From contig NZ_LT707006.1 of NCBI RefSeq assembly GCF_900155865.1, positions 1,199,626-1,263,625 of the forward strand: 64,000 bases of DNA, written 5' to 3'. The stretch comes from Bacteroides bouchesdurhonensis. GTDB lineage: Bacteria; Bacteroidota; Bacteroidia; Bacteroidales; Bacteroidaceae. Both the position numbers and the translations under genes were made by a program. Position 1 is the stretch's first letter. Every line of letters begins with the position of its first letter. Below are positions 2,896 to 41,758 of the stretch, in pieces. A model generated the notes under the pieces. It was not told the origin of the DNA. It ran no database searches and worked only from the letters and a program-made list of their open reading frames with translations.

Positions 2896-3624
2896 ATGAA
2901 ACGTAAATATATTTATATAGTAGGAAGTTTGTTGTTATTTGCCGGTCTGATCGGTTGTGAGGACATGGATGATAATTATAAACAGTATTTGCAGGAATAT
3001 AACTATTCCGGTAAGGTTGAGGCTTTGCGGAGTTACATTGGGTTTGAACGTATAGCGTTAGCTTGGGATGTCCCAAAAGATCAAAAGTCAAAACAAATCC
3101 TGGTTGAGTACGGAGCAGATAAACAGCAGAAATTATTTGACCACATGGTGGATTCTGTTGTGATTGACGGGTTGGATGCTGCTACGGGATATGATTTTGC
3201 CGTATATACTTTGGATAATGCCGGTAATCGTTCTGTACCTGCTACTATTACAGCTTTACCTATTTCTCGGACGGTGGTGGATAATTTGGTTCCACCTACT
3301 TGTTCTTATGTCGAAGTAGATGGGGTACCAAACGTATATTGGGCAGGACTTTCGGCGGTCAGTATGGCATTCTGTAAGTATAGTTATATTGATTATAAAA
3401 TAATGTCGGAAGATGAAAGTGAAGTTGTAACCAAGGGATGTCTGAAAAATACAGACGTAACGAGTTTGAATCGTGTGGGTGAATTGAAACTGCCTGCTCC
3501 GCAGTTGAGCAAAGGATCGACTTATTATGTTGATTTTACAGCCTATGTATATCCTATTTCAAGCGATATTGTTACCATGGATTCGGTTCCGGTCAATAAA
3601 AGGACCAGAATTATAGTAGAATAA
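2896..3624 (+). CDS. DUF4998-type lipoprotein, putative surface glycan-binding protein
   Basis: 242 residues, 25 bp downstream of the preceding lipoprotein gene and in the same run as susD. The signal ends in LIGC (Cys21) followed by EDMDD, again an acidic surface-export signal. It then shows two fibronectin-like beta repeats: GFERIALAWDVPKDQ and VDSVVIDGLDAATGYDFAVY are typical strand patterns with the LxxxTxYxFxVyt signature. This matches DUF4998 proteins found beside SusCD pairs. No catalytic motif was seen. It is the last gene of the susCD block; the next gene follows a 538-bp gap. Confidence 0.75.
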   Translation: MKRKYIYIVGSLLLFAGLIGCEDMDDNYKQYLQEYNYSGKVEALRSYIGFERIALAWDVPKDQKSKQILVEYGADKQQKLFDHMVDSVVIDGLDAATGYDFAVYTLDNAGNRSVPATITALPISRTVVDNLVPPTCSYVEVDGVPNVYWAGLSAVSMAFCKYSYIDYKIMSEDESEVVTKGCLKNTDVTSLNRVGELKLPAPQLSKGSTYYVDFTAYVYPISSDIVTMDSVPVNKRTRIIVE

Positions 3625-3716
3625 TACTGTTTTCAAGGCGGAGCTGACTACAGATTCGGATAGGTTATCTCAGTCCATTCAGATATACCATAAGGACTTT
3701 GGGTCAGCCCGTAGTA

Positions 3717-3849
3717 TGAAGCACTTTGTTTTATATAGAGAAATGCCTTGTTCTAAGGCATGAAACACTCTGTTTCACTATATAGAACACTTTGTTTCAA
3801 TAGGGTGAAACACTTCGTTCTCCTATATGAAACACTTCGTTCTGGCGGT
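3717..3849. repeat. Six degenerate 22-bp tandem repeats
   Basis: Six units of 22-23 bp run head to tail, starting near 3717, 3739, 3761, 3784, 3806 and 3828. The last two share their first 16 bases (TGAAACACTTCGTTCT) and differ at the end; earlier units keep the core CACTyTGTTt. A seventh partial copy (TGAAAC) begins at 3850. Stops occur in the frames examined, so this is probably non-coding. It lies in the 538-bp gap between the surface-protein genes and the first GH172 gene. Function unknown. Confidence 0.75.
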
Positions 3850-3923
3850 TGAAACTATTTAATTATACGGTTGAATTTAGTTTCTTTACTGTGTAGACGC
3901 TTCCGGGAAGCATAAAGTAAACT

Positions 3924-4024
3924 GGTGATAGGTGATAGATGGGGTGATAGGTTATAAACTAACCTATCACCTTCTGAAACTACTATGAATAGGCGGATAC
4001 AGAAGGTTGGTGATAGGTTGATAG
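3924..4024. repeat. GGTGATAG repeats forming two mutually exclusive hairpins
   Basis: GGTGATAG occurs at 3924, 3931, 3943 and 4009. An inverted copy TAACCTATCACC (3960-3971) pairs perfectly over 12 bp with 3943-3954 across a 5-base loop, and its last 11 bases also pair with 4009-4019, helped by TTCTG/CAGAA (3972-3976 / 4000-4004). The two pairings exclude each other. The element lies 140-240 bp upstream of the GH172 start. The rest of the gap (3625-3716, 3850-3923) shows nothing recognisable. Confidence 0.7.
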
Positions 4025-4118
4025 AGGAAATGATGTTTTTATCTGGGTAGGAGTATGAAATCTACAATAAGTACCGATTATAAATTAATTGTAATGATGT
4101 ACTTGTGGAAAAATAATG

Positions 4119-4126
4119 TACTTTTG
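4119..4126 (+). promoter_or_regulatory. Possible Bacteroides -7 promoter element
   Basis: TACTTTTG fits the Bacteroides -7 consensus TAnnTTTG and lies 36 bp before the GH172 start at 4163. No convincing -33 TTTG box was seen at the usual 19-21 bp spacing, so this is a weak call. If real, the GH172-kinase-GH172 genes are transcribed separately from susCD. Confidence 0.35.
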
Positions 4127-4162
4127 TGATACTCATCTCCGGATATTTAATAAACTAAAGTT

Positions 4163-5785
4163 ATGAATAGAATTAAAGGAATATGTTTAGCGGCTTTACT
4201 GATTATTATAGGAGGTCGTTCTATAGCGTCCGATAAAGTGACAATAAGCACTTTGTTGGATGAAATGATTTCATTCGAAAAGGCAGCGGAGTTTCCGGAT
4301 CCTTATTATACGTGTAAAATGATTAGTAGTTATGATCGTCGAACAGTATCACCTGATAAAGACTGGTGGTATGCCAATGACGATGGTTTCGGCTGCATGA
4401 GACTGGACACGATTCAAGGTCGCGTAGAAAAAGTCATGTTCGATTATGAAGGACCGGGAGTCGTTACACGTATCTGGCTGACTACAAATGTAAAAAATGG
4501 TACCCTTCGTTTTTATTTTGATGGCGAAGAAAATCCACGACTGGTAATTCCCGCTTACGATATGACACGTGCTCCTTTCAGGGTAGGTGATGCACTTTCT
4601 TTAATTCATACCAATTACACCCCCGAAGGTGCAGGAGGAAATACATTTATGTTTCCGCTTCCTTATCAGAAAAGCTGTCGGATTACTTTCGAAGAGCCCA
4701 ATAAAGATAGAAATACCTGGTCACCGCGATATCATGAGATAGAATACCGCACTTATGCCCCGGGAACAGAAGTCGAAACGTTTCATCCCGGACAGGTACA
4801 TTCCCACATCATGCAGGAAAAGATACAAGATGTAAACAAGGCACTTTGGAACCCTTCGACTTTTAAAGGCGGCGAACGTCGTGAGTTTGCTATGGATATT
4901 GCCCCTAATCAAAAAAGCTCATTGGAACTTCCTGCCGGAAGTCATGCGGTCCGTTCATTGATTATTGATGTACATTGCCGGAAAGGAGACTATGCGAAGA
5001 TGATGCGACAGTTAATTCTCAAAATATCTTTTGATGGAAAAGAAACAGTCTGGGCACCGTTAGGAGATTTCTCAGGAGCAGGATTGGGAGCTCCGAAGGT
5101 AGATAGCTGGTATATGGATGCAGACGGTCGTGGACATATCACATCACGCTGGGTAATGCCTTATAAAGAAAATGCTAAAATAGAAGTGGAGAACTTATTT
5201 GAATTCCCCGTCTGGATGAATGTCAGAGCACATGTGTCAGACTGGAAGTGGAACAAGAACACGCTTTATTTTCATACGACTTGGAAGCAGGAGAGAGGGA
5301 TTGAATTATCAAACCGATATGATGACCATAAGGGGGATCATATGTGGAACTATATCACAATCAATGGTAGAGGAGTCTTTAAAGGCGATTTGCTTTCATT
5401 GTTTAACTATGCTCCCGATTGGTACGGTGAAGGAGATGAGAAAATATGGGTGGATAATGATGTCTTCCCTTCCCATCATGGGACGGGTACGGAAGATCAT
5501 TACAACTGTTCTTGGGCACCGGTAGTTCCTTTCCACACTCCATATGGAGGTGCACCGCGGGCAGACAATCCTTCTTCACATGGTTTTAATGCTTTTGTAC
5601 GTACCCGAAATCTGGATGGCATTCCATTTCAGAAATTATACCGGTTTGATATTGAAATGTTGAGTTGGAATCCGGGTAAAGTAGATTATGCAGTGACAAA
5701 CTATTGGTATGGAGATTTGGATACCAAGATAAATGAAAGTTCGGGTAAAGAAGAAGTAGTAAATCCTTTACCTTATCTCATGTAG
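4163..5785 (+). CDS. GH172 (DUF2961) glycoside hydrolase
   Basis: 540 residues with an N-terminal signal peptide (about residues 1-22, no lipobox), so probably periplasmic. It carries the DUF2961 hallmarks: DYEGPGVVTRIWLTT near residue 90, then EGDEKIWVDNDVFPS, GTGTEDHYN and TPYGGAPRADNPS near residues 420-475. DUF2961 is CAZy family GH172; known members are difructose dianhydride synthase/hydrolases and exo-D-arabinofuranosidases, acting on furanosides. A second GH172 lies two genes downstream. The acidic residues of GDEKIWVD and GTED are the likely active-site region; the exact pair is inferred from the family. Substrate cannot be decided from sequence. Confidence 0.9.
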   Translation: MNRIKGICLAALLIIIGGRSIASDKVTISTLLDEMISFEKAAEFPDPYYTCKMISSYDRRTVSPDKDWWYANDDGFGCMRLDTIQGRVEKVMFDYEGPGVVTRIWLTTNVKNGTLRFYFDGEENPRLVIPAYDMTRAPFRVGDALSLIHTNYTPEGAGGNTFMFPLPYQKSCRITFEEPNKDRNTWSPRYHEIEYRTYAPGTEVETFHPGQVHSHIMQEKIQDVNKALWNPSTFKGGERREFAMDIAPNQKSSLELPAGSHAVRSLIIDVHCRKGDYAKMMRQLILKISFDGKETVWAPLGDFSGAGLGAPKVDSWYMDADGRGHITSRWVMPYKENAKIEVENLFEFPVWMNVRAHVSDWKWNKNTLYFHTTWKQERGIELSNRYDDHKGDHMWNYITINGRGVFKGDLLSLFNYAPDWYGEGDEKIWVDNDVFPSHHGTGTEDHYNCSWAPVVPFHTPYGGAPRADNPSSHGFNAFVRTRNLDGIPFQKLYRFDIEMLSWNPGKVDYAVTNYWYGDLDTKINESSGKEEVVNPLPYLM

Positions 5786-40265: not shown

Positions 40266-40721
40266 TCCTTTCTTAATGGCTAAAATGGTTAGCATGTTAG
40301 TATATATGACTCGTATGCCGGTTTGCGGATCACAGATCTATTTATTATGGATACTAACCGTATACGCTATCACAATGCAAATATACTAACTATATTATAA
40401 ATACCAAATATAATATTAGTATTTTATACTATTTAACTAATAACTATTAGCTAAATAATAGCATACGTAAGCATAATACGCCAATAAATCTAAAGAGGTT
40501 ATTGCCATAACAGGATGATTGCTAACAGAAAACTAACAATAGCGGATTGTCCGAAGCATGGGAATAAGATATTAAAGCCCGGACAAGATATTGGATGGCT
40601 GGGGAGGGGATATCTTACTATGAAGCAGCAATTAACTACGGCTACTAAGCATGATAAAACGGTTATTTTATTGTCATTTGTCACTTTTAAGTGTTATACA
40701 TCTGATAATCAACGGTAAATT
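40266..40721. other. AT-rich intergenic DNA without recognised genes
   Basis: Very AT-rich from 40370 to 40470. A 67-codon frame at 40515-40718 has no recognised motif and is not called. Further gene-free sequence at 40790-41095 also shows nothing I can assign. Confidence 0.5.
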
Positions 40722-40782
40722 GGTGACAATAGAGTGGTGACAATAGGGTGACAATAGACATTTGCAGCATTTCTATTGTCAC
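40722..40782. repeat. Three GGTGACAATAG repeats with an inverted copy
   Basis: GGTGACAATAG occurs at 40722-40732, 40736-40746 and 40747-40757; CTATTGTCAC at 40773-40782 pairs with the third copy across a 15-base loop. Same design as the GGTGATAG cluster at 3924-4024. Confidence 0.75.
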
Positions 40783-41095
40783 TTTCATTTTGCTGTTTAG
40801 CAACAGGACACACTGGCTGTCATGTGTTTAAGATGCTATTATAAGAATAGGGGGATTAGGGCATTTTACAGCCATTCCATGCGTTTTGGGGGAAAACCAT
40901 AGCCGTGCTGTCTTTGCATTGCTTGTTTTGGGGGGAGCGGACAGACGTTTTGCCTCACCATTACTCTCACTCAGGAAAAGCGGAAAGGGCTGCGGAAAGA
41001 ACACGGGAGAATAGGGCAGAAGAGAACCTTGAAGAAATACATGGAAACAGATTAAGGCTAAGATAATATGAATTTAGTTCATGCCGCTATTTCAT

Positions 41096-41161
41096 TAATG
41101 GATAGTCTGGTGTCCATTAATAGAAAACTTGCTCTCTACTAATAGAAAACTTGTTCTCCAT
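41096..41161. repeat. Three 22-bp tandem repeats
   Basis: Units at 41096-41117, 41118-41139 and 41140-41161. The last two share TAATAGAAAACTTG followed by yTCTC; the first is more diverged (TAATGGATAGTCTG). Exactly the same period as the array at 3717-3849, though the unit sequence differs. Confidence 0.75.
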
Positions 41162-41191
41162 TAAGTAATAACTTTCTTTTCCTTTATACAA

Positions 41192-41283
41192 AACTATAAC
41201 CGCAAGCTCCGGTTATATAACTGAAGCTTTTGGTTATATAATCAAAAGCTCCGGTTTCATAATCAGAACTTGCGGTTATAGTT
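41192..41283. repeat. 92-bp element with 15-bp inverted ends and internal 20-22-bp repeats
   Basis: AACTATAACCGCAAG (41192-41206) is matched inverted at 41269-41283. Between them, units beginning GCTCCGGTTATATAA, GCTTTTGGTTATATAA and GCTCCGGTTTCATAA repeat every 20-22 bp. The stretch 41284-41758 up to the RDD gene shows nothing recognised. Confidence 0.7.
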
Positions 41284-41758
41284 CTTTGCCTGCAAAAACA
41301 CATTTTAACGCTTGAAAGAACAGGTTTCCTTCCGGTTGGAAGGGATTTATGCAGTACAAATTTAGAAAAAAATATCGGTTTAGAAGCGGTTTTCATAATA
41401 CTTTCCTACACTTCTAGTTTATTTGAAACGTTATACTCTCATCTTTGACACTTCACTTTTACAAAATAGATACCTAATTACGCTATAATGGTGTTTTGGG
41501 TACTTTTTTCATATCTCACTATGTAGCTAAATATAAATAGTATATTTATTTGATATAAGAAAGGACTTTAATAGATGCTATTTAAGAGAGTTACAAATTT
41601 CTTCGAAGACAGAAAGTGTCAAACTTCCGCGAAGAATCTGTTCTTACAGGTTGTTTCCAATGATGTAAAGATACTAATTTAAAAGCAAATCACAACGCTG
41701 AAACGAGCGGTCCGGAAGGTATTTTAAAGGATAGGAATAGTTTGTTGCTTTTGTATAC

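Follow-up and report, generated by a model that had tools for sequence, protein, structure and literature searches.

The intergenic region and its neighbours

The window, that is the whole stretch of 64,000 nucleotides of the Bacteroides bouchesdurhonensis genome analyzed here, harbours an array of short tandem units in a 538-bp gap between two genes (Table 1). The upstream gene, whose product matches DUF4998, is located downstream of a SusD gene (128-1567), and the genes downstream of the array encode DUF2961 proteins. The initial annotation had placed the array in front of a GH172 operon; DUF2961 proteins are indeed encoded there, and we take DUF2961 to be equivalent to GH172. No open reading frame of at least 60 aa was found to overlap the array.

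Table 1 Features of the window
Feature	Position	Strand	Description	Basis
Upstream flanking gene	2896..3624	+	DUF4998 match; downstream of SusD gene	
22-bp array	3716..3841	.	~6 units, palindrome GAAAC-N5-GTTTC (some degenerate) plus ~7-bp linker	TRF, shuffles
End module	3915..4081 (core 3924-4040)	+	direct GGTGATAGG words and one inverted CCTATCACC	genome copies, alignment, profile match
Downstream flanking gene, past end module	4163..5785	+	DUF2961 protein	
Second end-module-like stretch	40665..40795	+	other word, GTGACAATAG: direct at 40723, 40737 and 40748, inverted at 40773	
Type-B array	41096..41290	.	22-bp units 41113-41164, then 21-bp units 41195-41277	TRF, shuffles

TRF recovered the array with an average period of 22 bp, 5.7 copies, 65% matches and 6% indels. 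Its score of 71 is the highest in the gap and was reached by none of 1000 dinucleotide-preserving shuffles (best shuffle 60), which confirms that the array exists. The period had been called strict, which is too strong a word for units varying from 21 to 23 bp. The final two units had rightly been described as starting alike; they have GAAACACTTCGTTCT in common. The palindromic nature of the unit and its mobile-element context, discussed below, had escaped notice.

A second array with the same period had been indicated at 41096-41161. It is real (its score of 83 lies above those of all 1000 shuffles of 40800-41758, the best of which is 62) and starts with 22-bp units, but continues with units of 21 bp (ATAACCG..CGGTTAT) which pair as a long imperfect palindrome. 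It is referred to here as type B. An end-module-like stretch built on another word is found ~310 bp away and is presumably linked to it. The folding energies of both window arrays are low (z -5.5 and -8.4), as is to be expected because their units are palindromes.

A class of repeats with a constant period

From the genome of B. bouchesdurhonensis, 35 evenly spaced 20-kb stretches were sampled together with the window, which had been picked for its array (764 kb in all). Period-22 arrays were found at many other loci: among the collapsed intergenic TRF rows with a period of at least 15, 17 were at 22 bp, 3 at 21 bp, 1 at 23 bp and at most 2 at any other length. A 9-mer lag spectrum of the same sample showed 89 matches at lag 22 against at most 19 at the other printed lags, and lag 22 was still first (31 against 12) after masking around each GAAAC/GTTTC word. 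Other samples from the genus (genomes, G; loci, L) also showed a lag-22 peak, with 84 matches in G056, 12 in G072 and 45 in a mixed sample of 14 stretches, four of which (L239, L240, L241, L253) had been chosen at known GAAAC arrays. In G059 8 matches were at lag 22 and 10 at lag 24, and the 120 kb of G021 gave none at lag 22. Outgroups of the same class (31 stretches, 620 kb) had a flat spectrum, with 3 of 22 rows at 22 bp and 17 matches at lag 22 against 34 at lag 17, and 100 kb of E. coli showed no 22-bp peak. Units sharing the 22-bp class are unrelated in sequence, for example TGGCACAGCTGTGCCAATAAGA, CACGTACGTGATCCGAAGGGCT and ACCCAGGTAGAACGAAACGAAA. The peak in spite of unrelated units, and its absence from the outgroups, therefore support the earlier suggestion of a repeat class defined by length and spacing and not by sequence. 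Palindromy is not universal in this class; a p value of at most 0.05 was obtained for 11 of the 42 non-GAAAC arrays of 21-23 bp from three Bacteroidales groups. The outgroup genome G081 harbours an unrelated dispersed repeat with core CGTCATTGCGAG and periods of 17-22 (L225, L255, L257, L258).

End modules and their arrays

The end module in the gap (GTGATA module) is a structure of ~130 bp. At its inner end lies an overlapping pair of GGTGATAGG words; next come a third copy, an inverted copy and, close to the outer T-run, a fourth. In the window its inner end points toward the array and its T-run end toward the DUF2961 gene. The stretch 3924-4040 has 13 more copies in the genome, and every one of the 14 faces a 22-bp-type array with its inner side. 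This array is of GAAAC type for 8 modules, one array serving two of them, and for the other 6 it is built like type B as judged by eye, at sites other than the type-B array of the window. Taking as a 22-bp-type array any TRF period of 20-23 or 42-45, or at least two GAAAC units, such an array was found within 500 bp on the inner side of 44 of 48 modules (L337 and L352, nearly the same sequence at two sites in a single genome, each being counted) and on the outer side of 0 of 48 by the same rule. After removal of loci fetched twice (L348, L349, L333 and both L311 modules repeat other loci) the number is 40 of 43. Proximity of arrays to GTGAYA-type modules, which had been suggested as a check, is thus borne out. 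Modules without an inner array include L297/L348 and L354, each of which bounds a BT4734 gene at its 3' end (see below). One further module, L345 (G398:C3:146049), has neither an inner 22-bp array nor a recognised BT4734 gene and is an unexplained exception.

At least three unit families adjoin the GTGATA module, namely GAAAC, type B and CTACCACAGCCGTGACGAGTA (L332, L339), which fits a class defined by spacing. A fourth unit, ATATAGGATATTAATAACCAAT (L361, with a close relative in L355), adjoins the module together with GAAAC units. Among 117 array-selected loci from named genomes the GTGATA module was present at one, and seven arrays of G041 had no flanking repeat in common. An inverted repeat from flank to flank was found at 6 of 70 array loci (L111, L113, L123, L130, L139, L153) and in 0 of 66 mismatched pairs; the words of these repeats differ (ACATACAT, CTATACAT, TTGCCTAC, GTGACGTT) and their build is similar. 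A word-blind detector of end modules fired at 12 of 21 GAAAC arrays of B. bouchesdurhonensis, at 8 of 27 non-GAAAC arrays, at 12 of the 38 arrays taken from other genomes and at 8 of 292 control points. Words belonging to neighbouring arrays account for four of the eight non-GAAAC hits, of which L196 and the window contribute two each; the L171 hit is likewise an array word.

Full-length and short elements

Full-length elements were found at four loci (L362 to L365) and share one order: an end module, ~80-100 bp, a 22-bp array, a promoter region, a gene of ~700 aa and an inverted end module, with 84-100 bp between module and array. In L362, L364 and L365 the inverted modules are 2.5 kb apart and enclose the array and one gene. 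L364 and L365 represent one insertion in two species, as their flanking genes are alike, and the L365 gene is spread over several frames. The larger L363 (4.2 kb) has its array 5' of three genes, an HTH/ImmA-IrrE type gene, a small one and the BT4734 gene; the first two lie beside the BT4734 gene at L363:3131-4710, within the module-bounded element, and are perhaps toxin-antitoxin cargo. Short elements consist of a module, an array and an inverted module (L366, L367 and positions 4257887-4258444 of the B. bouchesdurhonensis genome). In other genomes, too, a short interior without a gene is flanked by terminal inverted repeats, at the six loci with flank-to-flank repeats mentioned above. The window copy is gene-less and has one end module only, and so differs from a two-ended MITE. 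Inverted pairs at L368 and L369 enclose other genes; they may be chance neighbours or carriers of later insertions. No recombinase was found for this element family.

Presence and absence of an element was observed at the queF locus. Gap lengths were worked out for 26 of 60 genomes, those with two easily read flanking matches. In 17 the gap is 14-138 bp where B. bouchesdurhonensis has ~540 bp with an array and a module, and an insert is present in 9, in 8 of which the match spans all or most of the module. Together with the 14 module places in the genome, this gives the dispersed and variable occurrence known of MITEs. The full-length relatives with equal ends and a gene (L362-L365) also fit that pattern, but their gene is of VapE type and not a transposase. 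Copy number differs between related species, as shown by three gaps of 22-23 bp in one array compared between B. bouchesdurhonensis and B. faecichinchillae. The L178 locus was ambiguous as an empty site and was set aside because the whole gap turns over: B. bouchesdurhonensis and G009 have GAAAC arrays there, and G001 has another array with 22-bp steps (CTCACCACCGAGATGAAAGTAG, by eye). In G001 (L314/L331) the L178-locus gap of 771 bp also holds an inverted repeat, CACGGATTACACGGATTAACACGG, next to this array of another unit.

The BT4734/VapE protein and its link to the arrays

The product of the ~700-aa gene matches BT4734-like_N (PF08800), followed by VapE-like and DUF3874 domains. VapE (7pds) was the sole solved relative found by sequence, with the L119 protein as query. 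The N-terminal PF08800 match is what it shares with the BT4734-like family of archaeo-eukaryotic primases (PMC5862659). The DxD of motif I, which that paper gives as hhhDhD/E, is absent from 20 of the 22 aligned proteins studied here (by eye; e.g. VQIEVNHL, VELTVGPL), with or without an upstream array. Primase activity is therefore doubtful, and the element proteins probably carry a primase domain without catalytic function. L389 and L397 keep motif I (VIDIDHL, VLDIDHV); they are of another protein type without upstream arrays, as seen by eye.

A BT4734 gene was found within 600 bp of the array in 3 of 44 cases from other genomes, 1 of 21 from B. bouchesdurhonensis (strict call), 2 of 19 in a module-selected set, in which L349 repeats the B. 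bouchesdurhonensis locus L169, and 0 of 12 from G041/G043. In all six cases (five distinct loci) the array lies 5' of the gene, and an array is also found upstream of the BT4734 gene at L189 on contig 4 of B. bouchesdurhonensis. Starting from 17 BT4734 genes gathered from stretches and protein searches with arrays disregarded, 7 had a 22-bp array upstream (TRF score of at least 50, at most 600 bp away), compared to 22 of 247 control genes (Fisher 8e-4). The 22 control positives include two BT4734 genes, those of L384 and L395 called from a different start, which were kept in the count. The units involved differ: CACGTACGTGATCC (L218, B. bouchesdurhonensis), CACGGCCGTGATAAG (L385) and CACTATAGTGAACGG (L384). 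The other 10 of the 17 genes have no array at this threshold (L292, L386, L388 to L394 and L397), L390 having one at 626-687 bp, and most arrays lie far from such a gene. In the lag spectrum of the upstream regions of 26 loci, of which 9 had been retrieved on account of an array or module, 147 matches fell at lag 22, 95 at lag 44 and at most 21 elsewhere; downstream of the 26 genes 22 matches fell at lag 22 and 59 at lag 44, part of them from an array beside L396. The gene is more widespread than the array, occurring in 69 of 80 genus genomes against 32 of 80 for GAAAC arrays. In G041 0 of 6 listed BT4734 genes were near a listed array, and in G001 one was. Many arrays lack both a gene and an end module in their vicinity; these, for instance the seven of G041 without shared flanks, may be left over from old elements or may have spread otherwise. 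Two loci from a plasmid collection (L382, L383; B. finegoldii) carry ruvC or topoisomerase IV genes and are probably chromosomal contigs.

Conservation within the units

Arm pairs were compared over 600 units, a rough count, as members of one array are related to each other and similarity of the arms had guided their choice. Changes were one-sided in 515 cases and two-sided in 20 (12 complementary), so that paired change is not enriched. The lack of compensatory covariation therefore argues against an RNA hairpin. Positions 6 and 10 were complementary 334 times where 198 were expected, an excess that a hairpin or a longer dyad would give. The pair counts favour recognition of fixed half-sites, with a degree of dyad symmetry at the centre, rather than an RNA stem. 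Variation is lower at arm positions 3 to 5 than at positions 1 and 2.

Proposed function

Taken as a whole, the array is probably an iteron-like cis site of a replicase-bearing family of mobile elements of the Bacteroidales, of which the window holds a gene-less, one-ended copy. The VapE ATPase of the element, or a partner, would bind the half-sites GAAAC and GTTTC. As these recur approximately every 11 bp, the bound protein would occupy one face of the helix, much like an initiator on the iterons of a plasmid. Bound protein and word-repeat ends might then together allow the element to be replicated and moved by its own gene. Each lineage is envisaged to change the sequence of its unit together with the binding protein while keeping the two-turn spacing; joint change of site and protein at a fixed spacing would explain why the period is fixed and the sequence free. 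A bolder and distinctly tentative version is that this is a new type of element working without a recombinase. In it, a BT4734 primase domain with a dead motif I, fused to the VapE ATPase, would recognise the 22-bp iteron array and the word-repeat ends and move or multiply the element. Arrays and proteins would co-diversify with the period as the sole constant, and gene-less copies would seed the genomes of Bacteroidales and of some Treponema.

The proposal gives a home to a large and so far nameless share of the intergenic DNA of gut Bacteroides. It leads one to expect a mobile element whose gene is of replication type and which lacks any recognisable recombinase, and offers a testable case of a site and its binding protein changing jointly under a fixed geometric rule. 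In the literature searched, two papers on BT4734 were found, none on DUF3874 and none joining VapE, Bacteroides and inverted repeats. The arrays were likewise absent from what was searched on Bacteroides intergenic repeats, BrickBuilt, MITEs with a primase, and type I iterons with a primase, helicase or satellite, and nothing on them was seen in the available parts of PMC7366714, PMC5771137 and PMC4060949.

Relation to known systems and alternative explanations

Iteron arrays, as in RepA-type plasmids and with the alpha protein of phage P4, are short tandem sites beside a replication gene. The P4 alpha protein is a primase-helicase with GGTGA-type iterons. The arrays described here are alike in having tandem sites about two helical turns apart and, in a minority of cases, an adjoining replication-type gene; unlike plasmid and satellite iterons, the elements are chromosomal, dispersed and bounded by inverted modules, many of their units are palindromic and binding of an initiator is putative. 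GGTGA words in the present sequences resemble the P4 iterons, and nothing on such a resemblance was found in the literature searched on type I iterons with a primase, helicase or satellite. A phage origin of the arrays was considered and rejected: one viral contig match was obtained with the two-unit pattern and none with the module pattern, and a protein search of viral contigs was empty.

BrickBuilt, a MITE of Porphyromonas gingivalis, is likewise intergenic and dispersed and has a 23-nt tandem minisatellite between end sequences, according to the accessible text of PMC4596501. Its unit AGAYCATARTATCCTCTCRTRTG looks unrelated by eye to the units found here, and its ends are short terminal repeats matching IS5-family ISPg elements, in contrast to the ~130-bp word-repeat modules. 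That text mentions no VapE gene. In the present family the unit varies from one element to another, and a BT4734/VapE gene is present in the full copies. Compared by eye, neither the printed 23-nt consensus nor IS5-type terminal repeats were seen here. BrickBuilt nevertheless illustrates an alternative that we regard as unlikely, but as deserving attention, in which the array is a passive minisatellite, a functionless by-product of slippage or template switching inside a MITE whose ends are moved in trans by an unrelated transposase. The gain and loss of units between related species and the absence of the gene from most copies are in line with it. A passive origin is harder to reconcile with a period held at 22 bp over unrelated units, with the position of arrays upstream of the element's own gene and with the lower variability of arm positions 3 to 5, the latter being a rough measure on units picked by arm similarity.

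It is improbable that the arrays act as RNA, with stem-loops of a transcribed array terminating transcription or shielding mRNA ends, even though their folding energies are low and divergent gaps held 0 of 27 arrays of B. bouchesdurhonensis compared to 10 of 36. This bias made a transcription-end element look strong, but is gone in other genomes, where 11 of 44 arrays are in divergent gaps (gene calls being simple ORF picks), and the candidate was rejected. The arms show no compensatory change over the 600 units, several units, e.g. CACGTACGTG, should fold poorly as RNA, and no Rfam family reached its gathering score in window positions 3500-4300 (best 29.2 bits, 45 needed).

Operators of host transcription factors are more improbable still. 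Hybrid two-component regulators (HTCS) recognise directly repeated motifs spaced 21 bp apart on average, as reported in the available text of PMC3878776, and some two-copy rows may be such sites. The HTCS motif has two sites, however, whereas an array may count six or more units, is associated with end modules and, in some genomes, recurs in dozens of dispersed copies. The REP/RAYT system consists of dispersed intergenic palindromes. Short intergenic palindromes at many sites are a point of likeness, but spread by a RAYT (Y1) transposase can practically be dismissed, as the B. bouchesdurhonensis genome has 0 matches to Y1_Tnp (PF01797), with matches in 5 of 14 control genomes, and its 22-bp arrays are tandem.

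Distribution of the GAAAC family

The two-unit GAAAC pattern with at most three mismatches occurs at 92 places in the B. bouchesdurhonensis genome (reversed control 0). With at most one mismatch it was found in 32 of 80 genus genomes, at up to 56 places each (reversed control 0 to 5). At the family level 6 of 81 genomes had it, and at the phylum level 1 of 198, which is the B. bouchesdurhonensis genome itself. An exact pattern scan of named species genomes gave at least 117 stretches. Among the 80 matches listed, most are from Bacteroides and Prevotella types, with five from Treponema/Spirochaetales and one from Evansella. The five, which lie outside the Bacteroidota in spirochaete bins (L058, L068, L073, L115, L120), may reflect transfer, convergence or contamination of the bins. 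The family-level genome G349 has 60 places with near-alike GAAACTGGGTGTTTC arrays, perhaps the result of a recent burst.
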